From Paramacrobiotus metropolitanus (Eukaryota > Tardigrada > Eutardigrada > Parachela > Macrobiotidae): 64,000 bases of DNA. Location of the stretch: assembly GCF_019649055.1 (NCBI RefSeq), contig NW_026570236.1, forward strand, positions 1,674,001 to 1,738,000, given 5' to 3'. Shown here piece after piece: positions 7,081-31,985 of this stretch. The notes beneath the pieces were generated by a model that did not search any database, was not told the DNA's origin, and was given only the letters and a program-made list of their open reading frames with translations. The first letter of the stretch is position 1, and each line of letters starts with the position of its first letter. A program made the position numbers and the translations under genes.

Positions 7081-7542
7081 TTTGGGACGACCTCCAGGAA
7101 CTGGTGTCACTAATGACTGCTTGTGGTGATTTATATTTCATAATAACTCTGTCATTCAGTTATACCAAGTTACGCTGAATCTGGTAAACGTAAAATTAGT
7201 AATACATTCACAAAACCATCCAAAAATAAAGACCGAAACAAATTATGCAAATGCAGACGAACATCTCGTAAGGCAGCTATTTGCCAAGTGGCTCTTGCCA
7301 GTGTAACTTGACTTATTTATCTTACCATTAGCTAGTTGTTTACCATGGTCATGCTTATTGTAAATCGCTGAAAGTAACTCAAAGAGAAGAAAATTACAAA
7401 AAAAAACAGACGTGAATGTAATAATGCTAAAATGTAGAGCGCGGGCTTATTACATTTTCAGCCATACTACTGCAAAAACCTGGGTGCCCCAAACTCATCA
7501 ACATCTACGGTATACCACGCGTTGGGCAATTATGTAAAAGCA

Positions 7543-13249: not shown

Positions 13250-13734
13250 TCATAAATCCACACGATCAGAAACTTTTCGTATTACATACGGTAAATTGCG
13301 GCAGTAATGTTTTGGTAGAAGAGCGGCACAGACGGCTAAACATTCTGTCCATGAGTTCACGTAGGTGGAAATTTCACAAAGCACAAGTTGAGAAGCTTCG
13401 AATTTTACGGCGGTAACTAAATTGTCCTCGTGCGAAATCTTTGTTGCCGATAAATTGCGATAATTAGCACACCGTGTTTTAAGTACCAGGGAATCTCTTA
13501 TCATCTTCTCTTGACTAGCCAAAATAAAAATTAAAAAATACACAAACAAAACAACCAAAAAAATGTGTGCACAGATCGAGAGTGTGAAGAAAGTTCAAGA
13601 AACATTTCATGACACAGATCGAGACTGTGAAGAAACATTTAGGCAAGATAAAAACCAATAAAAAGCCAAAACGATAATATGTGAAACAAGCCCAAATTTT
13701 CTAATCCACGTGATACAAAACGTGTAGAAAGCAG
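13250..13734 (-). pseudogene. Duplicated 3' flank of the PDZ/PH gene, left half
   Basis: This stretch is similar to 47355-47800, which lies just past the last exon of the PDZ/PH gene. Shared landmarks in order include the TTGACTAGCCAAA block, a GTGTGCAC block, the GTGTGAAGAAACATTTAG block and AAAAGCCAAAA. It ends exactly at the retrotransposon, with the sequence ...GCAG as the left target-site copy. The continuation is at 31659. No coding sequence lies in this half. The copy has extra material (a repeated GTGTGAAGAAA segment) compared with the parent. Confidence 0.75.
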
Positions 13735-14094
13735 TCTAATGCTAGATCCAACCGTGATCCAGAGACGGAGACAGAAACGGAATCTATCCCGTGGAAGCGA
13801 GCGATACGATATGGATCGCGAGCTATGCGGAAACACAAACGTCGCACCGTAAATCGCTGACTTTTAATAATATTGAAAATCTGCACAACAGAAATCAACA
13901 AGTGATCGGCACAGCTCGATCGTAAAACGTAGAGCCCGTTCAACAGTGTGCAACACCGTGCAGCACGTGCTATGCCGCGCCCACTATCAAAACGCAAGCC
14001 AATCAGAAGAGACACAACACAGACACGTAATCCTAAGGCGTAGCGCCACAGGCGTAGCGCCACTGACGTGAACGCTAGTGATCCTGGTCTCACA
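13735..14094 (-). repeat. 3' LTR of the retrotransposon
   Basis: 360-bp left copy. In element sense it starts TGTGAGACC and ends CATTAGA, so it has the usual TG start but not a CA end. It matches the right copy throughout by eye. A 118-codon open frame runs through both copies with the same translation; I regard it as incidental because it has no motif. Confidence 0.93.
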
Positions 14095-16886
14095 TGCCTC
14101 TGGGGGGATGCCGAGCTCCAGTGAGGCTGGACACACTCCCGAATCCACGAGAAGACGACGGTCGCCAGTGTCTGTGCGTGCTCAAAAACATCAAATTCTC
14201 TTAATCCATTTTATCACATCAATTCCGTAAAGGCACAATTCCATTTAATACAATGTGAAATAAAGAGATCCAATTATAAAAATACTATCAAATCATTAGG
14301 AACAGATCAACAGTAACAGATCAACAAAAGTATTAATCAAATTGTAGACTAGGATCCTCCATTTCTGACTCGCAAAGGTCACAGGTCCTGTCCACCGTTT
14401 TCCGCACTTTTAATCCATTCCGCTCCGTTGAGCAAGCCTGCGCATCCGTAATGCGACTTCATCACAATCCGCTTGAGAATCAGGTGCGTATCAAGTACGA
14501 CTTAGGAATACTGCTTCATCTTTGGAATAAGGTGCATATCAATTGTACGACTTCAAAATGAGATCCATAAAGGTCATGGAGGGACGTCATGTAGACAAGC
14601 GTAGTTCGCTTCCTCCCTGGTAAAGGTCATCCTTTATTGAGATGATCAGTTGAGATGTGCGACTCATTTTGGGTTAATGGTCCCAAAGGTCATGCGACTT
14701 GAATTCCGATACGATGACTCTCTCGGGCGGTAATGGTCCCAAAGGTCATCCGACTTCTCTTCAAATTTCCATTAAAGGTCATGGAGAAACTTAGCCAATT
14801 TTCTGCGGCTTTCAAGCACTTCTTTGCTTGCCTCCCTGGTTAAGACTTAATTTGACCTTTGCGTCGCACATCCAACTTCAACATGCCTCGAGCGGCCAGA
14901 GTGCCGGCGAGTTTACCGTAGCATCTCTGATGGGGCCGGCTAGTTACCGCATTAAGTTCACCCCATGAAATTTCCACATTTTAACCTTTTACTCTTGTTC
15001 GCCGCTTGTGGCTTACGTTATTACGAGAAATCCGGCTTGGTTACCGTAGTTTTTCTCGTTTTAATTTTGACACTGAATCGCTTAAAAAGAGTGCCGGCAC
15101 GGTTTACCGTAACAACTCTAATGAGGCCGGCTGGTTGCCGCATTAAGTTAACCTCATCAATATTCCACCTGTTGTCTTTCTCTTTTTCGCCGCTTGTGGC
15201 CCCGTTTCGTATTCAAGAGATCCGGCTTGATTACCGTAGTTTCTCTTGTCAATTTATAACACTGAATCGCTTAAGGAGGAGAGCCGGCTAACTGCCGTAA
15301 CTACTCCCTTGGGGCCGGCTCTATAGACCGAATCAATCTCAACCCCAATAGATATTCCACATGATTTCTTTTAGGCAATTCTGTGCTATAAACGCTGAAA
15401 ACAACAATTGCACTAATGCAGTTTAAGTTAACATGTTACGTGACCTTTATACTTAACCATGATATTCGCTTCTGATGACCTTTCATGACCTTATCATTAA
15501 GGTCATTTGCTTCATTCACGCGGTGACCTTTCACATTTTGTCGTTTACGCCAGTTCAAGTGCTCCGTCGTTAATCAAACATTCAACAGAGTTTCTGATTT
15601 ACTTTCCATCCTTTCCGATATTCAGTTTGAACATTTCGAAGTCAGACAGCCATGCAGTTCAAAAGGTCATGTCGTTCCATTTGTTCGACAGATATTACCC
15701 AATGTCGCATCAGTTATGACCATTCTCCACGCATTTCTGTTGTGCTCTGGCAGCATTTTTCATTTCGCTGGTGTACCGCACGTATCCGGTTTCTGGGGGA
15801 ATGCCGAGTCCGTTGGTTCGGCTTCCTGACTCTGTTTCTCATCGATTTTCTATCTCGCCAATGATCCGGACGAAGACTGAGTCGATTTCGGTTCGTCAGT
15901 CTTCTCTTTTTTTGCGGCTAAGTCTCGTGACCTTTGGATTTCTCGGTCGTCAGTGGAATCTCTTGACCTTTCGGTTTCTCCGTCGCTGAAGCCTCTTTCA
16001 ACAGTGTAAACAGCGATTTTTGAACCACCTGTCGCGCGGAGTCCGCTTCTGCATCTACTGCCGCTTTTTCTATGGGGAGCATGACCTTTTCTTTCCCATC
16101 TTCTTTCAAAGTCTCGTGACCTTTCGGTTGTTCCATAGACACGGAACTCTCTTGACCTTTAGGTTGCGCTTCCTTCTCCACGGTTCCAGACGTCTTTTGA
16201 CCTTTAGGCTGTTCGAATTTTCTGTGAAAGTCCGTGACCTTCAGGCGGTCTGTCACTTGACCTTTCACTTGACACTTGGTTCATTTGATATTTGACCTTT
16301 AAGTTCATTTGCGCTTAACCTTTGGATCATTGGTCACTTTACCTTTTAGTCTTCAGTTATTTGACCTTTTCGGCTTCTTCAAATGTCTGACCTTTGCCAT
16401 AACAACCTCGTCTGAGTCTCATGACCTTTGTTCTCGCGTTTTCCAAATCCTCTTGACCTTTTCTTTTAGTTTGAATTCCAGTTGGAGTCTAGTGACCTTT
16501 CGAATGATCGTTCACTTCTTCCGTTTGTTCTTCCGTCAATTTCACAACCTTTCGACTGGGCGACAATTTCTGATGACCTTTCGTCCCGGATAACCTTTAT
16601 GAAGACCGTCCTGACGAATTTGAGGACCTTTTGACCTTTCTGATGATTCCGAATTTTGTGACCTTTTCGTTGTTCATTTGAATTTGGGTTGAATTATCTT
16701 GACCTTTCGATTGACCTTTCACTTCTACCGCATGATTCAGTCTAAGTCTGATGACCTTTCAAATTGATGATCTTTCTGGCTAGCAACGAAAACAATAACG
16801 ATTGGCCGCTTTGCGTCGTGTGACCTTTATGCCTTCCCAACTCCTATTTTTAATGAAGTGGACCCCATTATTCCTATTTATGAGGG
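14095..16886 (-). other. 3' non-coding part of the retrotransposon with internal repeats
   Basis: Between the end of the last pol-type frame and the 3' LTR lie about 2.8 kb rich in AAAGGTCA/TGACCTTT. A tandem array with a period of about 190 bp starts near 14899, 15089 and 15279, marked by GAGTGCCGGC and CCGCTTGTGG blocks. A frame at 15918-16268 encodes Lys/Gly/His-rich repeats that are simply the translated octamer (KGH, KGQ). I could not see a clear purine tract directly before the 3' LTR. Confidence 0.6.
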
Positions 16887-17999
16887 TTATTTGTTTTCGC
16901 GTCCTTTAGTTATCCGATCAAGGAGTTCTTTCTCGGCTGCATCCTCAGGTTCGCCTTTCTGGGTTAGCAGTTCCGTAGGAGTTGGTTTCTTCTTCTTCTG
17001 CTTGACCTTTCGCTCATTGATTGCTTTCGCTATATCGCGGCCCAATTGTTCTGCCTTTATTTTGACCGCCTCTATTTCCTCTTTTCGCTTTTCTATAAGG
17101 TCATTCTCATTGCCGGTAGCAGTGAGTGGTTCGAAAAAATTCGAATCGCGCTCTAATATTCCAGCGCCAACTTGCTGTTTCAAAAGGTCATCTTTGTCTC
17201 CGGTAGCAGTACGTGGTTCGAAAAATAGCTTTTGATTCGGTTCGAAACCCTTTTGCGAAGCGCGTCCTGCTACTTCGATTTCTTCTCCGAAAGCTGGTGA
17301 CCTTTCTGCCAAATTTCCAGCTTCTGCGTTCAACTTTTTTGTAACTGCTGTCTCGAAATCTTTGTCTTCTTTCCTGGGTCTTCCTCTCTTCTTCCTCGGT
17401 TTATCTCCACTCATATCAGGTAGCAGAGTGCGTGGTTCGAAAAATGGCTTTTGTTGTGTGACTGAGTCATTTTTCGGACTCGCCTGATTCATTTTCTTTC
17501 CGTTGGCTTTCTCCGTTTCGGGAAGCAGAGGTGGTTCGAAAAAAGATTCTGCCGAGTCTTTTTGAGTACGCTCTGTTACTCGTTCTACTGTTCCATGTTC
17601 TACTTCAGGTAGTAGAGGTGGTTCGAAAAAATTCGAGGTACGCTCTGATACTTTTTGCGAATCTTTCTCCTCAGGTAATGGCGGATGCCACAGCTTTAAT
17701 CGGTCAATCGAGACCACCTTTAAGTCTGCTTCCTTCTTAGGGTTCTGCTCAATGACCTCAGCTTCGTTTGTTCGCGGGAAACTCAGAATCTTCCACACTT
17801 TATCGTATTTCGACTTAAAGTCCGACTGGTTTTCTTTCTTCCCTTGTTTCGTGTCCTTTGGTAATCGTATCAGTACGAGGTCGCCCACTTTGAAATTCGG
17901 CTCCGATTTCTTCTTATTGTAAATTTCCGCATTCTTCTCATAAGCGTCTTTGATGTTACATCTCGCCACTTCTTCGGCAAAGGTCAAGTTCTTTTTCAT
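16887..17999 (-). CDS. Integrase C-terminal region and proline-rich tail
   Basis: Open frame of 370 codons. The first 110 residues resemble the end of a Ty3/Gypsy integrase: a helical stretch, then FKVGDLVLIRLPK, KYDKVWKIL and SIDRLKLWHPP, which is the usual chromatin or DNA-binding C-terminal fold. The rest is a low-complexity tail with five repeats of a FFEP-x-LLP or FFEP-x-TATG unit separated by acidic stretches, ending with a Lys-rich helix. The upstream catalytic part is in other frames, so this is a fragment of pol and not a separate gene. The listed start is only the first in-frame ATG. Confidence 0.75.
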   Translation of the reverse strand: MKKNLTFAEEVARCNIKDAYEKNAEIYNKKKSEPNFKVGDLVLIRLPKDTKQGKKENQSDFKSKYDKVWKILSFPRTNEAEVIEQNPKKEADLKVVSIDRLKLWHPPLPEEKDSQKVSERTSNFFEPPLLPEVEHGTVERVTERTQKDSAESFFEPPLLPETEKANGKKMNQASPKNDSVTQQKPFFEPRTLLPDMSGDKPRKKRGRPRKEDKDFETAVTKKLNAEAGNLAERSPAFGEEIEVAGRASQKGFEPNQKLFFEPRTATGDKDDLLKQQVGAGILERDSNFFEPLTATGNENDLIEKRKEEIEAVKIKAEQLGRDIAKAINERKVKQKKKKPTPTELLTQKGEPEDAAEKELLDRITKGRENK

Positions 18000-18189
18000 G
18001 GTCTCTACCCATTCGTCTGAGTTCCATAATCATCGGTATATTCGTTTTTGTAACCACATCTTCCGGCATTGTCATTTCTCTGCCGTGTAGCATATAGTAT
18101 GCTGAATATCCGTTGTGGCGTGCACGACTCTGTTCATCGCCGAAATAACGTATGGGAGATACTTATTAAACTTTCGTTCATTTCCGCCT

Positions 18190-19009
18190 TCAGATATTGT
18201 GCCAAACCATCCGCAATTGTCTGCATCTGCCTTTCAACTTGGCCTTGACCTTCTGGATGATATGCCGTTCCGAATGTGTGTTTAATCTTAAACACATTGG
18301 TGACCTTGCCAATACTTCAGCTGTAAAGTGTCGTCCGCGATCCGTATGTAGGATGTGCGGTGCTCCGTGTACCAATATCACGTGCTTCAAACACTTTGGC
18401 AAATTCTTTAGCCGTTGCCGTCTTCATTGGTACCGCAATCACGTATTTCGTCAGTTGATCAATGAACACCGCTATGTACTTATATCCGAGTTTCTTCGTC
18501 GGTAGCAAAGGTCCTTTGAGATCAGCATACACCGGAAGAACGGATGTCCGACTTTAATCTCTTGCAATTTTCCTGGCGGGCATTTCCTCGGTGTTTTACG
18601 AAACTGACATCCTTGGCAGGCGAATGTAATTCTTCACATCTGTACTCATCCTGTCCCAGTAATATCGTAGTCGGATTGCAGATAATGTCTTTTCGAATCC
18701 CAGATGTCCTGCCTTCTCGTCGTGCAATGCGTGAATTATCGCTCTTCGCATGGACAACGGTACCACATATGACCTTTCAAGTCTCCCATTTTTATCCTTT
18801 ACTCGGTATAATATGCCGTTCCACAACTGGTAATGTACTTCAAATTTCGATCTTGTCTCCGCGTCTGGTAGATGTTCCAATTCATCTATAATCATTGCCA
18901 GATGGGGATCTTTTAACTCGTTTATTCCGTAGCTGCAGATTTGAGTCATCCTCTTCTTCTTCATCTCCTTGTAGGTTAACGATGCGGACTGTCGCTGTGC
19001 TGAGTTCAT
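18190..19009 (-). pseudogene. Integrase, zinc-binding and catalytic core (frame-broken)
   Basis: The strand encodes in order the zinc-binding part (HALHDEKAGHLGFEKT) in 18596-19009, the first catalytic Asp region (AVFIDQLTKYV) in 18317-18532, the second Asp (HTDRGRHF) near 18340, and the Glu-containing HPEGQG motif near 18240. These are the D,D,E signature blocks of retroviral-type integrases. The pieces are in at least two different frames. The enzyme would join the element's cDNA to host DNA. As read here it cannot be made as one protein. Confidence 0.85.
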
Positions 19010-19611
19010 TCCAATCTTTGATGACCTTGCAGCGTGGTAATGGTTTGTACCTCTTTTTCATTTGTTTTGGGAATCTCAGCAACTTAATCGGGCACTCATT
19101 TAACGCTTGTGCCACCTTATCCGTTTCCCAAAGGTCATCTTTCTCTGGTCCACCAAGTCCTGTGACCTTTTCATTCTGTACTGTAAATTCCGCATCAAGT
19201 CCGGTGACCTTTAAGTCACTAACGGCGGGCAACCAACTTTTCACTCGGTTCACTTGTACTTCGTTTTCAGCCGACTCATTCGCCGTAGCTGAAGTGACCT
19301 TTAATCGTTTTTCTCGTTGTTCCACCATCTGTAGGAACAGCTGACCGATTTCGATTGCTGGTTCTTTCGTGTCAAATTCCTTCTTATAATCCTCGAAGTT
19401 TGGAATCTCATCAAATTCCTCCTCCTGACACGTCGGACCTTCAATTGGTGCTCTTGATAACGCATCTGCGTTGTCACAATATTTTCTGGTTTGTATTCGA
19501 TTTTAAATTGATGACCTTGTAATGCCATTGCCCATCTTGTCAAGCGCGGGTTCATTCCGACTTTATTCGTCTCTGACCTTAGCAAATTGGTCAGCGCCTG
19601 ATGATCCGTCC
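19010..19611 (-). pseudogene. RNase H-integrase linker (frame-broken)
   Basis: The end of the RNase H region is seen at 19301-19585 (RWAMALQGHQFKIEYKP, typical of the Ty3/Gypsy RNase H tail). It is followed at 18882-19328 by a charged segment with KVT repeats that come from translated AAGGTCA octamers. Frames change at least twice in this stretch. Confidence 0.7.
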
Positions 19612-20121
19612 TTAGGTGAATTCTGCGTAATCGATATACGGCTTAAATTTCCTGACAGCGAACACTACTGCCAGACATTCCCATTCCGTTACACCGTAAT
19701 TTTTCTCCGCTCCATGTAGGACGCGGCTCGCATATGCGATTGGATGTCCATCTTGTGACAGTACGGCCCCAATTCCTTCTTTGCTCGCGTCGCATTCGAT
19801 GACGGTCGGTTTTGCAGGGTCAAACTTTGCCAATACTGGACCTTCACATAACAGCTGTTTCAAGCTGTTGAACTCTTCTCCATGTACTGCTGTCCAGTCC
19901 TTTTTCACATGTTTATCTTGTCTCAGCAGCTCATACAAGCGGCAAGTCTTCTGTGCGTATCCCATTATGAACTTGCGGTAATAGTTCGCTAGTCCAAGGA
20001 ATGACCTTAATTGTCTTTCAGTTTGAGGCCGTTTGAACTCGGAGACCGCGGTGACCTTTTCCGGGTCCATACGAATTCCGTCTTCGCTGAGTATATGACC
20101 CAGAAATCCCATTTGTCTCAT
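19612..20121 (-). pseudogene. Thumb/connection and RNase H domain
   Basis: 169 codons open. It contains GFLGHILSEDG and the FLGLANYYRKF block that follow the RT palm in Ty3/Gypsy elements, then IECDASKEGIGAVLSQ with the first catalytic Asp of RNase H, and YASRVLHGAEKNY, the usual continuation. It shares its frame with the RT piece at 20227-20961, but about 100 bp between them must be read in another frame. Confidence 0.88.
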
Positions 20122-20226
20122 TCCAAATTCGCACTTGGTTGGTTTAATCGTGAATCCGCTTCAACCAGACTCATTAAGACATTTGCAGATTCTGCATGAA
20201 GATCGCCCAAGTCTTTCCGGCGAAGA

Positions 20227-21321
20227 TCACGTCATCAATGTACCCGAAAACGCAACCCTTTCTTTTTTTGCTTTCGAGAGAACTTTGTCCATACACAATT
20301 GGAATGTTGCTGGTCCGTTGCATACGCCGAATGGCATTCTTTTAAATCGGTACATTCCATCTTGCGTTACAAAGGTCGTCTTGTTGATTGACGCTGGATC
20401 CATTGGGATCTGCCAAAATCCACTTTGTAAATCCATTTTCCGTAATATTTGTTGCCTGCGCGCGTCGAGCAACTCATCCGGATTTGGTAGCGGGTAATTA
20501 TTCTTTCTCGTTAGCTTGTTAAGCATGATGTAATTGACGCAAAATCTTGTTCCCATTGTTCCGTCGCCATTTTTCTTTACTGCCAATACGACCGGGAAAC
20601 TCCACTCGGCGTCTGACGGTTCAATTACATCTTGTGCCAACATCTCTTCGATATGCTTTGTTATAAACTCGCGGCCTGTCCAACTCGTTCTGGCCGGGTT
20701 ACATTTAACTGGCTTCGCATCTCCCGTATCAATTACATGGGTGACTCCTTTCACATCTCCATACGGTTTCTTGGATGTCGGTAAGACTTTCCAGAATTCC
20801 CAGAACGCGTTGTACACATCGTTTTTCTGTTCCTGGGTAAGGTCAGGTTCCAATTTCAGGTTTTCGATTATCTTCTTCAATTCAGGTTTCGTTGTATCAT
20901 CCACCTCAGGGTCTTCGAGTACGTTCTTTACTGTCCCTGCGTTGACCTTTACATTTTCCATATGTTCATACGGCTAAACGTAGCCAAGAAGCTGATTTTT
21001 CTTCACAATCCGGTATTTGCTGCTGTGATTCGCAATGACGATTTCAAAGTACTTTCCTCTGTGGTCCGTTACTCCTGCCAATGGTTGCACTTCCGTTTCC
21101 ACTTGTGGGACCGGTGTAAACATCAACTTGTTTTGGGCAGGTGCGTATTTTCCCATCTTGACCTTTACGCGTGTGCAATTGGGCGGTTTCAATTTGATTC
21201 TTTGGTCACTGTAGACTTTGATCACGTCTTTCGACATCCTGGCCTTTTCCACTTTCAATCTTTTGACTTTAATATCCTTTTCTTTTTCCTCATCTACTTC
21301 GTCATCTTCATCCAAGTCCAT
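20227..21321 (-). pseudogene. Reverse transcriptase (internal stop and frameshift)
   Basis: 20974-21321 encodes the pre-RT linker ending KNQLLGYV. An in-frame TAG follows, and the frame stays open in 20227-20961 with RT blocks: KKNGDGTMGTRFCVNY, YPLPNPDELLDA, KMDLQSGFWQIPMDP, FKRMPFGVCNGPATFQ. The catalytic box is present as YIDD near 20235, but in a neighbouring frame, so a frameshift lies just before it. The fingers and palm blocks clearly place it in Ty3/Gypsy. As read, it could not give an intact enzyme. Confidence 0.9.
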
Positions 21322-21638
21322 TAAATCTTCTTGTTCTGAAAGGTCACTTACACCTGAATCTTCCGAAGTCGTTGAGTTATCACTTGAACTCGTCCACTCA
21401 GAGTCAGGTTACTGCTCTCATATTCTTGTGCAGTAGCTTGACCTTTGTCAACTTTTCAATTGGGCGCTCATCAACTCCTTCGTCTTCTGATGAAAGGTCA
21501 CTTTCGTTTTCCGCGAATCGCTAAGTTTTTTTCGCCGAATTTTGAGCAGAGGTTTGTCCCCTTCTTTGCCTTTCGCCGTTTCGTGCGGCGACTTTTGACT
21601 CCTTGCTACGAATTCTCGTTGGTGACCTTTCTGATTGA

Positions 21639-22887
21639 TCAGTTTGACCTTTCTTCGTTCGATTTTGACTTTTCCAGTTCATTTATTTCTTCGCTCGTTA
21701 ATGGCTTTTCAGTCAACTCGACTTTCCTCTGCCCGCGGCGACTCTTGGTGACTCCTTGCTGGAATTCTCGTTGGTGACCTTTCTGATTGATCAGGTTTGA
21801 CCTTTCTTCGTTCGATTTTGACTTTTCCAGTTCATTTATTTCTTCGGGGCTCGTTAATGGCTTTTCAGTCAACTCGACCGGCGGACATTCCTCACCGTTA
21901 TCGAGTGGCCTTTCCCCGTTTTTTGCCTCAGTTACTGGGTTTTGCTGTTCATTCGATATTCGCTCCACTTCTTCTTTAAACTTTCTCCACATTTCAATTC
22001 TGTCCGTTAACATCTGCGCAATATCGAAAGCCGACTTTGAACTTTCTTCCGTTTCGTTCGATCCTCCTTCGACTATTCCATTCGTGTCTTCAACTGGTTC
22101 CTCTTTGTCTGCTTCTTTTACAGTCCCTTTATCGACTTCATTCTGTTGGACTGTTTCGTAACCTTTAGGTCGTTTGGGACCGACGAAAATGCAGTTTGCC
22201 ATCAGTTCTTCGGTGACCCATTCATCATTCGGAATCGTTTCATACATGCACCACGTATCACCACCTCGTTCTGGGTAGTCCACTCCATCTGGATCTGGTG
22301 CAAAGGTCACCTTTTTCTTTTGCATTATTCCCGGTAGCCTTCTTTTCCGGGTTACCTGTAGTTCTCGCATCTCTTTTACGTCGAATTTGGGGATTTCTTC
22401 TTCAAATTTATTCCAGTATTTTTGGAATACTTCTTCGTTCCCCTCTTTTAACGCGTTGTAATATACTTCGAGTGATTCGTAGACAGGCGTACCAAGTCCT
22501 GCCGGGAAAATAATCGTCCTCCCTTCACCTTTATACATGTGGTTCACACGGAAGTCCCAGAAAAGGTCAACTCTCGCTTCTTCCCACATTTCTCCTTCTT
22601 CGGTCATCTCTTCTATCTCTCTTTCAAATCTCTTTTCGGTTGCTACCGGATCAAGGGGATCTTGGATTCCTTTCTCCACACGTTGCAACCAATGGTTTAG
22701 CCATCTGCCTCTTCCGATTATAAAAACTTTCCACACATGACAACCACGTTCGATATCTATTCCAATGATACCGTTCGATGTGGTTTCCACATTCGTTTGT
22801 CCGCATGATGCTTTTCACTTCCTTTTGGGCATGACCTTCAAGGTCTGCTAATGCGGTGTTACATTTCGGCCATTCTGAAAAGGTCAT
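21639..22887 (-). pseudogene. Variable pol spacer of unknown function with tandem duplication
   Basis: Open frames at 22651-22887 and 21639-22790 encode a Glu/Lys-rich protein without a recognised domain. The second frame is the same as that of the protease ORF, separated by a TGA at 22884-22886 that overlaps an ATG. Near the end a segment of about 148 bp is duplicated in tandem (about 21590-21735 and 21738-21885), giving two copies of VELTEKPLTS. It lies where Ty3/Gypsy elements usually have only a short protease-RT linker. Confidence 0.6.
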
Positions 22888-25800
22888 CTCGAGGCATTTT
22901 CACAACACTCCGCGCATTCCCATTGTGGTTGCACTCTGCACGGATCCTCAAAGTAACCGTGGTGACAACTCCCGGCTCGTTCTTCTGGAGTTAATGTCCT
23001 TTGACTCGCTTGAGGTTTAACCTGTTCCTGTATTGTGGTATCTTCCTCACATTCGATCGGAGTCACGCTTTTATCCTCAGAGGATATTAGGATGACCTCT
23101 GGTTCTTTTTGTGTTCTGTGACCTTTCAACTGTTCGAGCGCCTTGTTGCGGATTTCGCTCGTAAACATCTGTTCCTCTTCAGTTATTCGTTTCAAAACTC
23201 GTAACCTTTCGCTCTTTTTATCCTTCCCCACTTTAGCCGTCTTTATTTCCAGTACCTCTGGTACTGGGATAACTTTTTCAACACATTCTTTTTCTGTGGC
23301 TCCTTGCTTACAGTCATCTGCGATCATACTTCTCCCGTCCGGAAGAAATATGATCGCCTCATCCATATCTGGCGCAAGCGGTTCCTTTTTCTTTTCGTTA
23401 ACTTCTTTGACCTTTCCACTTTCTCTTTTCTTCTCCGGTGCCTCTGGTACCGGGATTATCCGTTGGCTAATCTCGTTCTGGTGTACTCTCGTCATTCCCG
23501 GTGCCTCTGGTACTGGGATGACCTTTTCTCTTCCCTTTTGTGTCAGCATTGTCCGGTTTAACGTGTTTTCAATCTCCTGTTGAATCATTTGCAGCTGTTC
23601 AAATGGTGACAATCCTTTTGGAAACATCTCTTTCTTTTCTTTTCCCGGTGCCTCTGGTACTGGGATTAGCGTTTTATTGGCCGTTTGACCATTTTCCTGT
23701 TTTGCAAGTTCGGTGACCTTTCCGACCTGTACTTTAGCAACTGGTTTCGGGTCATCTTCTTTTTCTTCTTCGCCTTCGTTATCCATCAGTACAAATTTCT
23801 TTTCCAAGAAGTCAAATCCCAATAACACCTGTACGTCGTCACACTTCGGTCGGACGTAGAAGGAATGTTCGCTTGTCTTCTTTCGTAAGGTCACCGGTGC
23901 TACACAGTAGTGTGTTACCATGAAACCTGACGTTCCACTAATTCCATTTATCCGCACCAGCCTATCTGGCGGTAGTGGGAGCATATGAAGTCCATTCTTC
24001 TCGCAAAACGGTTTGCTGATTAGCGACGTCTCGGCGCCGGTGTCCAACATTGCGTTGACCTTTATGTCTCCCACTTTCACTTCGTGTGTGTACGCTTCAG
24101 TTCCTTTAGGCTGTTTTCCATTTTGAATTTTCAACGTGTGAATCTTGCATTTTACAGGAATCAGCGATACTGGTCCCGGATCCATATCGGGAAGCACCTG
24201 TCCTTTTACTGGAGTGCTATGACCTTTCAGTATTTCGCTCAACTTATCAATCCTGTGTGGAACGTCAGTTCGAACATCGTAGTATTTTCGCGGCTTTTCT
24301 GTATTTGTTTGCTTCTGCACATTCTGCACTTGCTCATTTGCTTTTGTGCTATCCACGTGACCTTTAGTCACTTCATTTATCGTCTGATGGATCAGTTCCT
24401 CTTTACGGTTTTCATTTCGTTTATCCCTCAACTTCTCAATGACTTCACTTGTTATTTGGTCCGCTCGCTTCAATTCGTCTTCTTCACTATCTTTCGTCTC
24501 ATCTGGTGACCTTTCGTATGTAACCATGTCATATCCCTTTTCGGTCATCCATTCGATCACCTTCGCGGACACTTCATTGTTCGTTTTCGTCTGATCAATT
24601 TGTGAAGACATTCCGTCTGTTCGGGCTGGTGACTTGTCATTGGCATCCTTTTGCAGTGCCTCCGATAAGTCCCGTGACCTTTCAACTGTGCCACTCTGTT
24701 GCATTTGCGTCATCTTATTTGACCGTCTTTTTTGTTCATTTTGCGCTAAGTCCTGTGACCTTTCGTTGCGCTTCATGACAAATCCGCCGCCCGTCAGCTT
24801 TTGTATGGGGACTTTTTCTCCATAATTCGGCGGTTTGTCCTCTGGCGGTGCATTTTGTCGATAATTCGCGTCAGCGAATGTCTTCTTATATTCAGCTGGG
24901 TCAAATGCTGGGACTGTGTTCGGTGACTTTTGCGCTGGTTTCCCGGTAACCAACTCTTCTAGTCGCTTTCTTTCACATTGCGTTCGCAACTGTTGCATGT
25001 CCCAGTAGTCCTCTTGTGACATTCTCGCTTTCTGCTTTGCTTTCGGCGTCACAGGTATCCACATCCCGTGATTGCCATTCAGTCTGTAGGCCACTTTTTG
25101 CCACTTCTCCTTCTGTTGTAGTGTTACTGCGTCCACAAGTGAGTCGTCGGAGTTCTGTGCCATTTCATTATTCTTTTGCTGCGCTGTCCGCAGTGTCAAG
25201 TCCGTTTCTTGACCTTTTAACACGGCACTTTCATCGTGACCTTTAGCGTTCGCACTTGCTCCTTGACCTTTCACTTGGACTTTTCCAACAGAAGGTGACC
25301 TTTCATCTTTACTGTTAGTGATACTCTGCTCCATCCATTTTTGCCTTATCAACTTCTCTTCTTCGTTCTCTGAACAATTCCAGAACTTTGGCTTTATCTC
25401 TCCGTAACAGTCGCAACCTGGTTCATTTGCTTTATCATTTTCTGCCAAGTATTTCCGGAATTTCGCATGTTGCACATTTTCTTCTTTCGCAGTATCGTTC
25501 TGCGGTTTCTTCTGATCGAGCAACGCCTGTTTAATCTTTGCGTTCCGTTGTGCGCGTCGTTGCGCTAACACTTCTTCGCTGCAGTACGGTGACCTTTCGT
25601 TTTGCTGCACTTTTTGCAGTGTCGCGCTACCGTCACGACAATTTCCACTCGCAGTACCATTCTGCGGTGACCTTTGGTCCCGTTGCGCGTTTCCACTCGC
25701 AGTACCATTCTGCGGTGACCTTTTATCCACTTGAACATTTCCACTCGCAGTACCATTCTGCGGTGACCTTTTGTCCACTTGAACATTTCCACTCGCAGTG

Positions 25801-26101
25801 CCATTCTGCGGTGACCTTTGATTCTGTGACGGTATCCTTATAACCGTTCCATTCCCCTTTTGCGGTGACGGCATCCATATAGCCGTTTCTCTTTGCTGTG
25901 GCGGCATCCATCTAGCCGTTTCCTGTGGTTGCGGCATCCATATAGCTGGTCCATTTTGCTTTTTCGCTGACGGCATCCATATAGCCGTTGTAGTGGTCAC
26001 ATTCACTGCAGTACCATTCTGCAGTGGTGACCTTTCATTTTTATCCGGTGGTTTAGGGTCGGGACGATCAGTAGGCTCACCGGTGCCTACTGATCTTGCC
26101 C
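22884..26101 (-). CDS. Pro region: retropepsin with long repetitive N-terminus, read by -1 frameshift
   Basis: This frame is open from inside the end of gag to 22884. It has no early ATG, which fits entry by -1 frameshifting at 26102-26108. The N-terminal part is repetitive: about five IWMP-type units (25869-26000) and four 45-bp units encoding RSPQNGTASGN (about 25640-25830). The aspartic protease core is near 24015-24050 with DTGAETSLIS. It is followed by a hydrophobic-Gly block with LLGFDFLEKKF, the typical second half of a retropepsin. Downstream come five VIPVPEAP repeats. The protease should cut the Gag-Pol precursor. The octamer repeat is read here as KGH, KVT and RSP. Confidence 0.85.
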
Positions 26102-26108
26102 GTTTCCC
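26066..26108 (-). promoter_or_regulatory. -1 programmed ribosomal frameshift signal (gag to pro-pol)
   Basis: In gag frame the RNA reads CAG GGA AAC, which contains the canonical slippery heptamer G-GGA-AAC (26102-26108). A 6-nt spacer follows. Then comes a perfect 11-bp hairpin (GATCAGTAGGC with its complement, 8-nt loop) at 26066-26095, which encloses the gag TAG stop (26087-26089). Slipping back one base enters precisely the long protease frame. All three elements of a classical -1 site are present with normal spacing. Confidence 0.88.
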
Positions 26109-29100
26109 TGAACCGGCGCCCCGCCTTGTTGCGCGCCCTGCACATTTCCTTGCACATTTCCTTGTTGTTGTCCGATATCGTTTGCTGGGTTAGGATTCTG
26201 TCCGTTGCCGTTGTTGTATTGGCCACCACCCTGTTGGTAGTTGCCTTGGCCGCCTCCATTGTTCTGGCCTCCTCTGAAATTTCCGCGGCCATAGCCTCTG
26301 TTCCTTCCTCTGAAGCCGCCGCGGCCGAAGCCACCACGGCCGTAGCCACCGTTCTGGCCGCCGCCATTTCCATTTCCGTAATTACTATTTCCATTGCCTT
26401 GTTGGTTTTGGAAGTTCGCTTTGTGCTGGTACCATTGGGTGATAAGGTCATATCCGTTTGCTACCGCTGGGCGCCAGCCACCCGTGGCTCGGAGGCGTTG
26501 CCACTCCCTGAAGGCAAACAGATTCGGGTTCTGTTCTGGTGGTGTATTGGCGAACTTGCATCCCTGTGTCTGATGATTGCCATACATACAGTACTGGCAC
26601 ATCTGTACATTGTTCGCCACCCATCCGTCGATCATCTGAAACTTGAATTCAGTTCGTGACCCTTGTTGCTGTTGGTTTCCTCTGAAGTTTCCTTGACCTT
26701 GACCTTGTCCCTGATTCTGGAAGTTCCCTTGACCTCCATTCCAATTTCCGTTTCCGTACCCGTTTCCGCCAAAGTTTCCGTTACCCATTCCTTGTTGTGG
26801 TAACGCTACATTCATAGGGGCCATATTCTGTGGTGCCGGTGGGATTACATTCTGGGGTGCCGGTCTCACTTGGGCCGCCGCTTGTATCGCCGCTACCATC
26901 GCATAGGTTATCGGCTGCCCCGTCTGACTGTCGATAAAGGTTACCTTTTCCGTGACCTCTCTGACCGGGGTTTCCACATGGTATTCCACTGGCTGTTGGA
27001 CTGGTGCAGCTGTCATCCTCTGTTGCGGTACATTTTCCACTTGGCCTTGCCGGATGGTCACGTATTCCTGATTACGTCGACCTTTCGGCGCCTTATACTT
27101 TTCCTCGCCCGTTGCCCAATGTCGGAAGAAGTCCTTTACGTCCGTTGGCGTCTTGCACTTCTGTATGCGCAGTGCCTTGTAGAGTTCATTATCCACCCTA
27201 CATCCTTCAATTAGGAAGCCCACGGCCTGTTTCTCAGTAATGATTCTCTTTGCCTTAAACCGCATCATCGCTTGATAGTATTGGTCAAGCGATTCTTTTC
27301 CGAGTTCAAATTTCCTTGCGTAGGCCTCACGTAAGCCTAGGACTTCTTCATCTCGGTCACCGTATTCATCTTTAAATTTGTCCATCCATTCGGTTATTGA
27401 GTACTCAATTCCATCTTCTGCCGCGATGTCCTTTTCTCCTTCGAACCAGGTTTTGGCAGGACCTTTCACCGCACTGGCTATCTCAATCATGATTTGGTCG
27501 TCCGTCAGCTGGTAAGTCCTTTGGGTTTCTTTCACCAATCGTGTCCACCCACTTACTGTGTCACGACTGCCGTCAAAGGTCATGAGTGGTGTTTTCCTGG
27601 CCATCGAGTTGAGTGCTTTTATCAATTGCACCGCTGTATTTTCTGCTCTCTGGTCATCGTCTTCTTCGCTACTTCCATCATCACTTTGATTTCGTTTCGC
27701 TTTTCCATAACGGGATTTCCTAGGGCGCTCCTGCCGGCTGGAGGGTCTGTCCCGTCGCCCTTCATCAATGAACACGTTTGTTTCAAAGTGCGAGGGAAAT
27801 TGTGAAGGGTCACCTCGACTCATATGCGGGTTACTTTCCGAAGGTGGCTCTTTGTCTTCTTTGCCCTTTTCTCCTTCTCGTTCCGCTTTTACGCTTCCTT
27901 TACCAGTACCAGTTCGTTTTGGCACTTCAAAGTGGAAGCTTTTACCCGTGCCCGTTTCTTGCGCCTTGCTGTAACTGGGCGACGGTGATTCCACTGTTGC
28001 AGTTCTGACTCCGTATTGCAACAGCTGTTCATCCTTGTGTTTGTTCGACATGTTGAGGGCCTTATTCTCGTCTTCGAGGCGTTTGACTTTCAGCTGGAAT
28101 TCTTCCCTCTCAGTTTTCAAGTTCTGATTTTCCTCCTTGACCTTCAACATGTGTTGGTGGAGCTGGAATGTTTTCTCCTGAATGACCTTTTCAGTGTCGT
28201 TCTCCACTTTTTTAATGTGTTCTGCCAACTGGGTCACATCCCTTTCCAACATCATGTATTCCTCAGCTGATGCTTTCAATTGGTTTTTCGACTGGGTGAC
28301 CTCATCTTCTCTTGTCATCGCCGTTTGGGTCATATCAATCAGCTCCGTGTTGAGTTTGATGATTTCCTGCGTCTTCTGGTGAACTGTTTGTTGCCATTCT
28401 TTATCTTTCAACCCAAGCGCCGTGACCTTTACGTCCAAGAGGTGTGCCTCATGCTCCCACCTCATGCCCTGTTCGGCAATTGTCTTAACGGTTCCTTTTA
28501 ACTCGTTGATCTCTTCGGATACCTTTCGGTTATCTTCTTTCAACGCCTGGTTCTCTTCTTCATGTTCCTTGGCCACCCTGGCGGCTTCATCGGCCCTTCT
28601 CTGGTGATCATATGATTCCTTCTGGAGGATCCCGATATTCTCGTCACGCAGCTTCAGGTCATTCCTGAGTTTAAACACTTCGGTAGTGTTTGTCAGTAGT
28701 CGCTGGGTAGCCTCGGCAAGTTTAGTCGCATAATCATCTCTCTTGGCTTCTGCTTCAGTGACCTTTTGTTTCAGGGAGTCGCATTCGTCCTTCAATTCTG
28801 CCAAATGCCGTGACCTTTCCGCTGTTTCCTCGGACATACTCTCGTTAAGGTCACTGACTGCAAGATGACCTTCCATTTCTCTGTCATCTACCATTTTCAG
28901 GTACTCCTCAGCGAGTTCTTTTTGGCGCTCGTATTTGATCTTCCATTCGTCCGCCGTGTTCTCCAAATAAGCCTGTTGTTGCTCCAATTCATAAATACGA
29001 GCATTGAGGGATCCCATCTGGGTTTGGTATTCCTGTCTTTTTTTCATCACCTGACCTTCCTTCACTTCGAGTTCTTCTTCCAATTCCTTTACACGTCTTT

Positions 29101-29827
29101 TCAAAGTTGACGTGGGACTGTTCGGTGATGGCGGTCGTACATTGATGACCTTTCCAGTTTGTGTCCGTTCAATGAGGTGCTCTGGTATGTCCTTAAATCG
29201 TGTCATACCTTCAGCGCGGTCGGCTTCCTTCATCGCAGTTTGGAAGGACATATTCATCGTCGCTTCGTCATCCGTGAAGTATGATTCGTTTGACTCATCT
29301 GAGACCATTGGAGTTGCCCAAAGGTCATCGCCTGCGGTTTTACCGTTCAGTGAAAGGTCATCCAATCCCAGCTCAGCCAGTTCCTCTTCGGTGACCTTTG
29401 TGTTTCTCTCTTCCACTTGAGTCAGGTTCGCATTTTTATCCTGCTCATTCGTTCCGCCAATGGTAACATCCAGCTGTGATGCTCCAATTGAATCCGCTCC
29501 TCTTTCTGTGGCTCTTTCCTCCCCAGTGACCTTATTCTGGTTCATCGGATCACTTCCCGCCGTAGGTGCGGGAGTGTGCTTCTGGTCGTCACTGGAACTT
29601 TCCTGGTTGGCGACCGCCTCGAGCGCCTTCTGATAAGTGCTATCAGAGCCTCGTGAATCCTTCTTCTCGAATGCTTTGGGCGCTCGAGTGTTCCGCTCAT
29701 GTCCAACTGGACGTGAGTACGGGTACAAGTCCTTTTTGTACGGGTTCGGTGCGCTTTGCTGTGAGCTGCGGGAGCTTTTACTTCCCTGACTACTGTTGGA
29801 TGTCGGTACCTCTTGGTCTTTGTCCAT
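26087..29827 (-). CDS. Gag polyprotein, very large, with coiled coil, capsid region, zinc knuckle and RGG tail
   Basis: About 1246 codons from ATG 29827 (the frame is open further up but only from a GTG). Order: Ser/Gln-rich N-terminus; acidic segment; a long heptad-like coiled coil of about 400 residues (roughly 240-640) rich in Glu, Lys and Gln; a Glu/Arg spacer; a retrotransposon Gag capsid-like region (about 760-950, with MTFDGSRDTVSGW, AKTWFEGE and FKDEYGDRDEEVLGLREAY); one CCHC zinc knuckle (CQYCMYGNHQTQGC, spacing 2-4-4) near 26559-26600; and a Gly/Asn/Gln/Arg-rich tail with several RGG boxes. It would package element RNA. The frame is intact. The coiled coil and RGG tail are unusual additions for Ty3/Gypsy Gag. 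Octamer-encoded KVT and RSR tripeptides are scattered through it. Confidence 0.92.
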   Translation of the reverse strand: MDKDQEVPTSNSSQGSKSSRSSQQSAPNPYKKDLYPYSRPVGHERNTRAPKAFEKKDSRGSDSTYQKALEAVANQESSSDDQKHTPAPTAGSDPMNQNKVTGEERATERGADSIGASQLDVTIGGTNEQDKNANLTQVEERNTKVTEEELAELGLDDLSLNGKTAGDDLWATPMVSDESNESYFTDDEATMNMSFQTAMKEADRAEGMTRFKDIPEHLIERTQTGKVINVRPPSPNSPTSTLKRRVKELEEELEVKEGQVMKKRQEYQTQMGSLNARIYELEQQQAYLENTADEWKIKYERQKELAEEYLKMVDDREMEGHLAVSDLNESMSEETAERSRHLAELKDECDSLKQKVTEAEAKRDDYATKLAEATQRLLTNTTEVFKLRNDLKLRDENIGILQKESYDHQRRADEAARVAKEHEEENQALKEDNRKVSEEINELKGTVKTIAEQGMRWEHEAHLLDVKVTALGLKDKEWQQTVHQKTQEIIKLNTELIDMTQTAMTREDEVTQSKNQLKASAEEYMMLERDVTQLAEHIKKVENDTEKVIQEKTFQLHQHMLKVKEENQNLKTEREEFQLKVKRLEDENKALNMSNKHKDEQLLQYGVRTATVESPSPSYSKAQETGTGKSFHFEVPKRTGTGKGSVKAEREGEKGKEDKEPPSESNPHMSRGDPSQFPSHFETNVFIDEGRRDRPSSRQERPRKSRYGKAKRNQSDDGSSEEDDDQRAENTAVQLIKALNSMARKTPLMTFDGSRDTVSGWTRLVKETQRTYQLTDDQIMIEIASAVKGPAKTWFEGEKDIAAEDGIEYSITEWMDKFKDEYGDRDEEVLGLREAYARKFELGKESLDQYYQAMMRFKAKRIITEKQAVGFLIEGCRVDNELYKALRIQKCKTPTDVKDFFRHWATGEEKYKAPKGRRNQEYVTIRQGQVENVPQQRMTAAPVQQPVEYHVETPVREVTEKVTFIDSQTGQPITYAMVAAIQAAAQVRPAPQNVIPPAPQNMAPMNVALPQQGMGNGNFGGNGYGNGNWNGGQGNFQNQGQGQGQGNFRGNQQQQGSRTEFKFQMIDGWVANNVQMCQYCMYGNHQTQGCKFANTPPEQNPNLFAFREWQRLRATGGWRPAVANGYDLITQWYQHKANFQNQQGNGNSNYGNGNGGGQNGGYGRGGFGRGGFRGRNRGYGRGNFRGGQNNGGGQGNYQQGGGQYNNGNGQNPNPANDIGQQQGNVQGNVQGAQQGGAPVQGNGQDQ

Positions 29828-31286
29828 GTTGATCGGATAACTTGGACGCTCCTGCCAATTGTTCTCACACACACGTTATTGTATGGTTTATTCAGTTATC
29901 CTAAAGGTCACTTCGTACTTCGAAATTTTCCAAGTCCTTTGTAAAGGTCACTTTTCGGTTGAAAAATTTCGACTAAGTCCCGTTTTAAGGGTCACTTTTT
30001 CGATAAAAAGTTCGAGAGATTTGCCCTAAAGGTCACTCTTCAGACAAAACTTCGAAGCCGTTCTTACGGTTCAGAACATGTTTACAAATGAAATCCTACA
30101 GCTGCTGATATCGCTGTACTACTATTCACTTCAATTTCACTTCGATAAAGGTCACTATTGGTCGCTTTCAGGTCATAAAGGTCACGTAACTAAGTCAATG
30201 TGGTCAATTCCAACTTTTCAGTGAAGGTCACTTTTCAAAGTCGAAGGTCACGTTCTGATCTCAAAGGTCACTTTCCGACTCAATTCAACTCAAAAGGTTA
30301 CTTTCCAACTCAATTTCTGTTAAAAGGTCACTTTCCCGCTCAATTCAAGTTAAAGGTCACTTTTAAGCTCAATTCGATCAAAGGTCACGCTTCCTTTGTC
30401 TCAACTCAAAAGGTCACTTTTCGTCTCAATTATCTTATCTCAAATCAAATTTCCCATTACAACTAGAGTTCAGCGGAAAATCCCCATTCGGGTTGTTTAC
30501 TTCATTCCTATTGGTCAGCTAGCTCAAATTATTCAGTTCAAATCTCAACCAGTCGCAGCTCAGATAACCGACCAATCATGTTGCTCCTCTTAAAGTTTAA
30601 ATCAGCCTGACGTCACGGTCAACGGCCAGACATGCGCACCGTGTGCAAAACCCCGCCTACTTTTACGCTCAGCTCAGTACGGACCAATAAGAATTGCGAA
30701 TTTTACCAGCTGACCAATCCCTTAATTAATAACGGTTTTCTACCTGTTAACCGTCCGTCCGTTCCGCGTTCCACGGGGAAATGATCCAGATGATCCAGAT
30801 TCTTCTTCCAATTCCGCTCCCGCGTCGCCGCTGTTCCGTAGCGTGCCTTGCGCTATTAGTAGGCTACTGTGCCGGCTGTGCCGTAGCAGCAGTAGTTGTA
30901 CGCTCTACACCAGTTTGGTGGAGTCTGATCTGTCTTTTCCGTGCGCCCCTTTCGGCGTTTCGGCGCTTCTGCCCCACGGCTTTTAGGATTCGCTGAATCC
31001 TTGCCGAGTATCAGCGACACCAGTGTAGGTCTTCGCTGAAGACTCTACACCGAGGAACGCTGACAACTGAACTCTTGAACTCTTGCACAGCTGAGGAAAC
31101 AGCACGGTTCTTCGCTGAAGATACCGTACCGAAAACCAAAGCTGGAAATCCACGTCAGATGAGGCAGTTCACCGCTTGTGGTGTTGCGCTTTGCTGTCGG
31201 ATAGACCTGTGCCTTACTGGTCGGGTTTCACGTCAAATAACAGGCCAACTTTGCCTGACACAAATCAAATCAGAGAACCGCTGTCG
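29828..31286 (-). other. 5' leader of the retrotransposon with octamer array
   Basis: 1.46 kb between the primer-binding site and gag. Between 29900 and 30420 the plus strand shows about 14 AAAGGTCA or one-off copies, mostly 30-40 bp apart with similar flanks (AAAGGTCACTTTTC then a Ser/Asn-like AACTCAATTC spacer), so part of it is a true tandem array. In element sense these read TGACCTTT, the complement of the form that prevails in the coding region. Short frames here have no motif. Confidence 0.7.
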
Positions 31287-31298
31287 GCTCTGCTACCA
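31287..31298 (-). other. Primer-binding site
   Basis: TGGTAGCAGAGC lies immediately inside the 5' LTR in element sense. The first 11 bases are complementary to the 3' end of a typical animal initiator methionine tRNA including CCA, so this tRNA is the likely primer. The tRNA match is from memory of animal tRNA-iMet ends. Confidence 0.8.
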
Positions 31299-31658
31299 TC
31301 TAATGCTAGATCCAACCGTGATCCAGAGACGGAGACAGAAACGGAATCTATCCCGTGGAAGCGAGCGATACGATATGGATCGCGAGCTATGCGGAAACAC
31401 AAACGTCGCACCGTAAATCGCTGACTTTTAATAATATTGAAAATCTGCACAACAGAAATCAACAAGTGATCGGCACAGCTCGATCGTAAAACGTAGAGCC
31501 CGTTCAACAGTGTGCAACACCGTGCAGCACGTGCTATGCCGCGCCCACTATCAAAACGCAAGCCAATCAGAAGAGACACAACACAGACACGTAATCCTAA
31601 GGCGTAGCGCCACAGGCGTAGCGCCACTGACGTGAACGCTAGTGATCCTGGTCTCACA
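31299..31658 (-). repeat. 5' LTR of the retrotransposon
   Basis: 360-bp right copy, followed on its outer side by GCAG (target duplication) and on its inner side by the primer-binding site. It should hold the element's promoter. The GTGATCCTGG and AGGCGTAGCGCCAC direct repeats lie near its start in element sense. Confidence 0.93.
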
Positions 31659-31985
31659 GCAGGATGCCAGAAAGAAAAATAAATGACCACAACAGCTGCA
31701 ATTTTATACAATCTTCGTTCATGTCGTGAACATCAAGCTGCCCGGCGAAATGCGATCGCTTTACTGCGTCAACAGGGGATAAGCGGGAAAAACCGACTTC
31801 TCCCCATCGGAAAAGCATCACAGCGAGCCACATTGTGCCGATGATGGTGATAGCATCACTGAACAGTAATCTTTGTAGTTGCGCAGTGTTTTCAGCTGAT
31901 TCTTGATGGCCAGCACCAGATCTGAAGGCTGCACTACTATCGAGATTTCTTTCCCCAGTGCGTTCAAACGGTCATCAATCTACAG
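31659..31985 (-). pseudogene. Duplicated last exon of the PDZ/PH gene, right half
   Basis: Starting at 31979 after an AG, the minus strand encodes the start of the PDZ gene's last exon (IDDRLNALGKEIS...) with few changes. Near 31860 two bases are missing, so the frame runs past the normal stop. The rest matches 47800-48010. With 13250-13734 it forms one duplicated fragment interrupted by the retrotransposon. No upstream exons of that gene are found next to it, so it is a dead fragment. Confidence 0.85.

Follow-up and report, generated by a model that had tools for sequence, protein, structure and literature searches.

In Drosophila, the gypsy element carries a cluster of sites for the host zinc-finger protein Su(Hw) between its 5′ LTR and gag, and the gypsy insulator comprises roughly 12 sites within a single non-coding segment. 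Sites for HNF4-alpha reportedly occur in Alu repeats, where they are spread over many short repeats. Binding-site arrays in transposons are already known, and the cases compared here are mainly non-coding. Paramacrobiotus metropolitanus, the tardigrade host of the present element, is known for desiccation survival. VANDAL/VANC is an anti-silencing system of Arabidopsis; the VANDALs are plant DNA transposons with a chiefly non-coding motif and a transposon-encoded reader (PMC5735166, PMC10398659). The NBRE is known as a single site in host enhancers, and PMC4777543 gives AAAGGTCA as this monomer site of the NR4A receptors, in agreement with the preliminary description of the present locus. Here, one exact 8-bp word is preserved across approximately 16 kb of a tardigrade retrotransposon, running across gag, pol, and an ORF3 relic and using all reading frames, as a regulatory DNA code overlaid on the protein code.

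Results

The window (the whole stretch of 64 kb that was analyzed) contains a Ty3/gypsy-type LTR retrotransposon of 17.9 kb on the minus strand at 13735–31658. The 5′ LTR (31299–31658) and the 3′ LTR (13735–14094) are 360 bp each, mutually identical, and free of the octamer. A 4-bp target duplication, GCAG, flanks the element at 31659–31662, adjoining the 5′ LTR, and at 13731–13734. A probable primer-binding site, TGGTAGCAGAGC, was identified by reading the sequence directly adjoining the 5′ LTR (31287–31298, minus strand); we take it to resemble the 3′ end of the initiator Met tRNA. The Pfam matches on the minus strand appear in the order protease, reverse transcriptase, RNase H, and integrase. 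The element is assigned to the Ty3/gypsy LTR retrotransposons on the basis of its identical LTRs, the GCAG duplication, TGGTAGCAGAGC, and the Pfam domain order. Rfam and tRNA scans of the 64-kb window gave zero matches. The interval of 14375–30420 previously given for the element includes 91 octamer starts, with one more at 14374, and falls short of the full extent, since the LTRs reach 13735 and 31658.

All of the internal features lie on the minus strand. The non-coding leader (29896–30416) contains an array of 10 octamers, all TGACCTTT on the sense strand and partly on 30-bp tandem units. The gag-like ORF of 1261 aa (26087–29872) contains nine octamers and is named for its position and composition; it gave zero Pfam matches. 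The aspartyl protease ORF, assigned using Pfam (22884–26006), contains 19 octamers, or 20 when the frame is counted from stop to stop, and includes 48-bp tandem units at 25641–25820. A protein search with this ORF returned nothing at E 0.001 among 8000 scored. In the pol frame, five octamers are found in a portion without a Pfam match (21639–22790), and one octamer is found in each of the reverse transcriptase (RVT_1; 20227–20961), RNase H (RT_RNaseH_2 and RT_RNaseH; 19612–20121), and integrase zinc-binding (Integrase_H2C2; 18596–19009) portions. Four more are located at the C-terminal end of the frame (16887–17999); in subfamily B, its homolog is the terminal portion of the frame that carries the integrase. 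The densest stretch, with 24 octamers (15441–16830), holds a decayed relic of ORF3; positions 15732–16178 match residues 526–681 of the L080 ORF3 fragment with 38% identity (E 4e-16). The 3′ non-coding cluster (14374–14860) contains six antisense octamers and one sense octamer.

The window contains 97 exact octamers, which appear on the plus strand as 31 AAAGGTCA and 66 TGACCTTT. The whole element contains 92, including 27 AAAGGTCA and 64 TGACCTTT that start within 14375–30420. Simulated sequences (60 for each model) gave means of 0.9, 1.7, and 11.1 and maxima of 3, 5, and 18 for first-, second-, and third-order Markov models, respectively. The approximately 90 copies reported in the preliminary description are therefore borne out as far above composition-matched controls, and an origin by chance or composition is ruled out. 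The octamer is also scarce outside the element, as had been proposed, with five copies in the remaining 46 kb beyond the LTRs against a permutation mean of 1.6; a count of five was attained in 37 of 839 letter permutations.

The element contains 58 one-base neighbors of the octamer, led by TAAGGTCA (10), GAAGGTCA (8), AAAGGTTA (7), and CAAGGTCA (5). Position 1 admits T, G, and C more readily than most positions admit change, and beyond one base the sequence around the 92 sites is near random. The closest octamer starts in the window element are 12 bp apart, and close dimer layouts are therefore absent; this spacing of exact AAAGGTCA copies is that of NBRE monomers. Helical phasing was not detected in the body of the window element (best period of 11.8 bp, R of 0.22 vs 0.18 for the null), C1 (0.28 vs 0.27), or D1 and A2 (under their own nulls), and no consistent period was found across copies. 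A periodicity of approximately 9.8 bp is present in two of the three leaders tested and may reflect just the 29–30-bp units.

The octamers occupy all three reading frames, at approximately 10 times the level of synonymous-codon shuffles (34 observed vs 3.8 for L077 and 47 vs 5.3 for L071). In the alignment of A and C/D, 25 of 70 octamer columns are shared. The octamers of C1 are retained in A in 53–54% of ungapped comparisons, against 5–6% for other 8-mers, and the flanks have a per-base identity of 0.58–0.59. Across the leaders of 15 copies, octamers are identical in 82% of pairwise comparisons, vs 39% for spacer 8-mers from the same zone. Within the element, 64 of the 92 octamers are in the sense orientation and 28 are antisense; every site is antisense in all 15 of the A-type leaders examined. 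Between the window element and C1, conservation was found for 15 of 20 sense and three of four antisense sites, the antisense values resting on few sites (two to four per comparison). The octamer is followed by G at one of 64 sense and none of 28 antisense sites, and this avoidance is also present in the non-coding leader. Because three frames are used, orthologous sites persist, and both orientations are conserved, the octamer is preserved at the DNA level. The octamers are very probably selected duplex-DNA sites, and selection for them is supported by the synonymous shuffles, the aligned relatives, and the leader comparisons.

The preliminary description had also named relatives that lack the octamer at orthologous positions as evidence against its reading. 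Such relatives were found in B and E, and the opposite was found for A and C/D. At sites shared by its relatives, B has kept 0 of 12–19, and zero octamers are present in 23 kb from two B copies. By parsimony, this absence reads as a loss. The array is not indispensable, because the array-free B has many reverse transcriptase copies. The per-base identity of B at the shared sites is 0.63–0.67, vs 0.55–0.68 for its own flanks. Active purging of sites is unsupported by these similar values, and lifted constraint suffices for the loss. A comparable replacement motif was not found in the coding DNA of B or E (best z of approximately 7 vs 18 for A and D); a mild enrichment of GGGCCAA is present in the coding DNA of E.

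Discussion

From sequence comparison, the best reading of these octamers is an array of putative monomer sites for a host receptor of the NR4A type, for which we judge the chances to be even. The DNA-binding domain and C-terminal extension of the host NR4A match NGFI-B (1cit) at 77 of 87 residues, including GRRGRLP. The reader would be a sequence-specific protein that binds double-stranded DNA as a monomer and recognizes AAAGGTCA when the next base is C, A, or T. A host NR4A-type nuclear receptor would suit this role, the NBRE being exactly this octamer, and the probability that such a receptor reads the octamers falls just below even. The receptor platform proposed in the preliminary description is partly supported, by the octamer count, the NBRE identity, the selection, the host domain, and the monomer spacing; the coupling of expression or integration to a hormone or activity signal that was suggested there is conjectural. 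A simple promoter platform is disfavored, because zero octamers were found in the LTRs at all 29 loci examined. Since the sites are found in gag, in pol, in the ORF3 relic, and at each non-coding end rather than in the LTR promoter, the bound protein would most likely act as an intragenic enhancer or would keep the chromatin of the element accessible (anti-silencing). Chromatin opening is only tentatively proposed as the purpose of the array. It is conceivable, though we would not expect it, that nearly the whole internal sequence is a landing platform for a stress- or activity-responsive host NR4A, which would open the chromatin or fire the element on host signals, and that the sister lineage escaped this dependence and lost its sites. 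That the proteins of the element were bent to accommodate the sites belongs to this same proposal and is similarly doubtful.

The main rival is that an element-encoded protein, with ORF3 as the candidate, reads the octamers as VANC reads the VANDAL motifs and may keep the element active. ORF3 (approximately 1600–1800 aa) is located downstream of pol in longer copies and is present in A-, B-, and C/D-type copies. It diverges much faster than reverse transcriptase: the ORF3 ends share approximately 50% identity for A vs B and 32–36% for B vs C/D, where reverse transcriptase has 88% and about 85% or less, respectively. One of five ORF3 proteins (P0052) has a weak Pfam linker-histone match (E 2.4e-4; 21.7 bits, cutoff of 22.4), but the other four match no DNA-binding family. 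The VANDAL motifs are likewise dense, short, and family-specific (PMC5735166). However, octamers are lacking in B, which does have ORF3, and are common to A and C/D, whose ORF3 ends differ more than those of A and B. The window copy retains its array with a decayed ORF3, although supply in trans is possible, and under this reading the octamer would match a known host receptor site only by chance. We consider a reader encoded by the element unlikely. A different host DNA-binding protein, either another nuclear receptor or an architectural or insulator protein, could instead read AAAGGTCAH in an array resembling the Su(Hw) insulator, and this is rated as rather unlikely. The host has 63 zf-C4 matches, the octamer ranks first in frequency among complex 8-mers in the vicinity of host receptor genes, and the leader array sits between LTR and gag as does the gypsy insulator, but the coding frames are also filled with sites, unlike that insulator. 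FTZ-F1/ERR-type sites are TCAAGGTCA and fit less well, since T precedes just 22 of the 92 octamers and CAAGGTCA occurs five times. The avoidance of a following G is, to our knowledge, no known rule of the NBRE, which favors a different protein, but an NR4A receptor preferring C over G after the octamer (AAAGGTCAC vs AAAGGTCAG) would also account for it. Near host receptor genes, G follows 8 of 20 octamers, vs 1 of 92 in the element (Fisher p 2e-6), and the genic and element words may therefore have different readers.

A role in RNA, also suggested in the preliminary description, would make the octamer a signal for packaging, export, or splicing control in the element transcript. The transcripts traverse all of the sites and 64 of 92 are sense, but this bias within the ORFs can be explained by protein constraint, because the antisense word gives a stop in one frame and F or L in the others. 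The wholly antisense leaders, the conservation of antisense body sites (few per comparison) at the level of sense sites, and the avoidance of G in both orientations make an RNA signal very improbable. Least credible is a functionless by-product of tandem duplication or repeated peptide motifs. Some octamers do lie on tandem units (25641–25820 and 30263–30431), but the site flanks are nearly random, the three frames encode different residues, the shuffles yield about a tenth of the count, and orthologous sites outlast their changing flanks. The flanks, the shuffles, and this persistence rule out a protein-repeat or codon by-product for most of the sites.

If the host NR4A reads the array, a signal-responsive receptor would be directly linked to transposon activity. 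The loss of the array from one closely related subfamily also leaves array-bearing and array-free relatives within one genome, which can be compared for expression, chromatin, and spread.

Comparison with Known Systems

The element resembles VANDAL/VANC in having a short DNA word that is dense within a single group of transposons, is missing from close relatives or replaced there, and is partly in tandem arrays. It differs in being an animal LTR retrotransposon rather than a Mutator-type DNA transposon, in a word that extends into coding frames and is identical to the site of a host receptor, and in having ORF3 only as a candidate for an element-encoded reader. The relatives of a VANDAL carry differing motifs; B and E lack the octamer, and a comparable replacement word was not found in their coding DNA. 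As in gypsy, an LTR retrotransposon carries a site cluster between the 5′ LTR and gag. Unlike gypsy, it has 92 sites of a different word in 17.9 kb, and most are outside the leader, which contains 10, with the rest in the coding and 3′ parts. The Alu repeats with HNF4-alpha sites are likewise mobile elements carrying nuclear-receptor sites, but here approximately 90 sites are present per element and are preserved across diverged lineages. The correspondence with the NBRE consists of an identical octamer, monomer spacing, and an NR4A domain in the host; the putative sites here form an array within a mobile element rather than single sites in host enhancers.

Octamer Enrichment and Structure of the Window Element

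The window contains 97 exact copies of the octamer AAAGGTCA or its complement TGACCTTT, 92 of which lie inside a single 17.9-kb Ty3/gypsy-type LTR retrotransposon on the minus strand (13735–31658). Simulations at first-, second-, and third-order matched composition (60 runs each) gave means of 0.9, 1.7, and 11.1 octamers and maxima of 3, 5, and 18, all far below the count in the element. The preliminary description had claimed about 90 copies in the retrotransposon and scarcity elsewhere; both claims are borne out, with 5 of the 97 octamers in the window flanks, a mild excess over the 1.6 expected. In the 169.8-Mb assembly, with repeats and genes pooled, there are 42,562 octamers vs 15,522 copies of the reversed word. 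Eight copies of another word, AAAGGTCAG, at steps of 90–91 bp on contig C1 (G000:C1:2537724-2538368) look like a satellite array.

Repeat comparison identified two 360-bp LTRs at 13735–14094 and 31299–31658, bordered by a 4-bp duplication, GCAG. The two LTRs are identical, which suggests a recent insertion. Pfam matches for aspartyl protease, RT, RNase H, and the integrase zinc-binding domain appear in that order. Many other copies possess a single long frame around RT, open up to 3,124 aa; the window copy looks disabled because the corresponding region is broken into several ORFs. For hand-set regions of the element, octamer density is low in RT–RNase H (1.3 per kb) and in gag (2.4 per kb) and peaks at 15.7 per kb in the relic of ORF3, the third large ORF that follows pol in longer copies. 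The difference between RT–RNase H and the relic is as expected if protein constraint limits the number of sites.

Two diverged tandem units of ~191 bp in the 3′ part of the element (14898–15320) contain no octamers. Direct repeats of 79–84% identity, ~25.3 kb apart on either side of the element (7518–9073 and 32778–34430), are perhaps another repeat family. A further direct-repeat pair (31703–31992 and 47858–48151; 89–93%) and a 120-bp inverted repeat (37704–37823 and 39187–39306; 90%) are also present in the window.

Relatives of the Element

The best 150 of 1216 candidates for the RT query were scored and all 150 match; copy numbers are lower bounds. Relatives were sorted into rough tiers by RT identity: A (~90–100%, the tier of the window copy), B (~86–89%), C/D (~78–85%), and E (64%). 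Three copies of A (window included), two of B (23 kb), two each of C and D, and two of E (16 kb) were compared, and the surroundings of 30 LTRs were sampled additionally. With midpoint rooting, trees of two protein pieces separated A and B from C/D, with support of 100/100 for the larger piece; the protease tree placed E far outside. Several inner branches are weak, and one tree has no supported A group (three A rows) separate from B.

A Paramacrobiotus metropolitanus protein at NCBI matches the RT query at 96% identity over 44% of the query, and all three protein matches to the ORF3 query are from the same species. Four NCBI gene models (P0001, P0052, P0053, and P0054) are assembled from gag, pol, and ORF3 pieces of the retrotransposon, and one of these carries the name golgin A6-like.

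Selection on the Octamer

The 6 kb before RT contain 29–34 octamers in A, 35 and 40 in C, and 26 in the D2 copy; the D1 copy has 55 in 10 kb. No octamers appear before RT in B (10, 6, and 7 kb) or E (10 and 6 kb). Within ORFs the octamer uses all three frames, encoding K-G-H/Q, E/K/Q-R-S, or x-K-V. Against 100 synonymous-codon shuffles, 34 vs 3.8 octamers were found in locus L077, 47 vs 5.3 in the pol frame of locus L071, and 20 vs 2.1 and 9 vs 0.6 in two window ORFs.

A nine-locus alignment provided 70 octamer columns: 25 common to A and C/D, 27 in C/D only, 18 in A only, and none in B. Octamers of the C1 copy are retained in A in 53–54% of ungapped comparisons vs 5–6% for other 8-mers, and the bases flanking them agree with A at 0.58–0.59. 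Relatives lacking the octamer at orthologous positions, named in the preliminary description as evidence against its reading, are found in E and in B, which retains none of the 12–19 octamers common to an A and a C/D copy; A and C/D do not show this pattern. Of other 8-mers common to A and C/D copies, B retains 32–47%. Because A and C/D have octamers at common positions, the simplest account is that the common ancestor of tiers A through D carried the array and that B lost it. Per-base identity of B at the lost octamers (0.63–0.67) is similar to that of its flanks; relaxed constraint therefore accounts for the loss, and active purging is unneeded.

Duplex DNA and Candidate Readers of the Array

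Between the window copy and C1, 15 of 20 sense and 3 of 4 antisense octamers are kept, the antisense sites being few. In the window element, a G directly follows one of the 64 sense octamers and none of the 28 antisense ones; the counts are 0/29, 0/34, and 0/8 at three other A loci and 0–3 per locus in C and D. Genome-wide, G adjoins the octamer's end in 4,042 of 42,562 cases. Every octamer in the 15 non-coding leaders compared is antisense; when the leaders are taken in pairs, octamers match exactly in 82% of cases vs 39% for 8-mers from the spacers of this zone. The array very probably consists of selected duplex-DNA sites. The RNA signal offered earlier as an alternative is disfavored, as antisense octamers are kept like sense ones and G is avoided in both orientations.

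No octamer was found inside the LTR at any of 29 LTR loci, and the array is therefore no ordinary promoter. The outer flanks of 27 LTR loci (39 kb) show no clear excess (3 vs 1.4). Among complex 8-mers in the 85 kb near host nuclear-receptor genes (L039–L068), the octamer ranks first in frequency, and its flanks there are unrelated. Across 28 loci, receptor genes only and with two overlapping loci left out, 21 octamers occur in 88 kb vs a mean of 3.0, and none of 839 permutations reaches 21. A following G is present in 8 of 20 octamers near receptor genes (27 loci) vs 1 of 92 in the element (Fisher p 2e-6). The form used in the element may therefore be more restricted than the genic form, a difference unexpected if a single receptor recognizes both in the same way. 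An element-encoded protein, with ORF3 (~1600–1800 aa) as the candidate, could instead read the octamers, although this is rather unlikely. ORF3 follows pol in longer copies (L079, L080, and P0052–P0054, on contigs G000:C44, C7, C109, and others) and diverges quickly. Of five related proteins, one has a weak Pfam match to linker histone, slightly under the curated cutoff. The ORF3 end of the A copy L080 contains 8 sense octamers in 2.5 kb, and a decayed relic of it remains in the window at 15732–16178.

No comparable array was found in titles and abstract openings of mostly open-access literature on the octamer or NBRE with retrotransposons, on receptor motifs with retrotransposons (among the matches listed, best 10 of 122), or on P. 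metropolitanus transposable elements, tardigrade LTR elements, and tardigrade NR4A. PMC4777543 gives AAAGGTCA as the NBRE, to which NR4A receptors bind as monomers. The closest octamer starts in the element are 12 bp apart. FTZ-F1 and ERR sites read TCAAGGTCA; these receptors fit worse, as T precedes the octamer in 22 of 92 cases and CAAGGTCA occurs 5 times. The genome gives 63 zf-C4 matches, many of which cover just one exon of a domain divided between exons, and the exons of an NR4A gene on contig C45 (L063 and L054) join into one DNA-binding domain. On the NBRE identity, this host domain, the site spacing, and the poorer FTZ-F1/ERR fit, a host NR4A-type receptor is the best single hypothesis for the candidate reader. 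The receptor platform proposed in the preliminary description is partly supported: against the site's absence from the LTR at all 29 loci are set the NBRE word and a joined host NR4A domain that shares 77 of 87 residues with the NGFI-B structure chain 1cit and carries both CEGCKG and the GRRGRLP extension.
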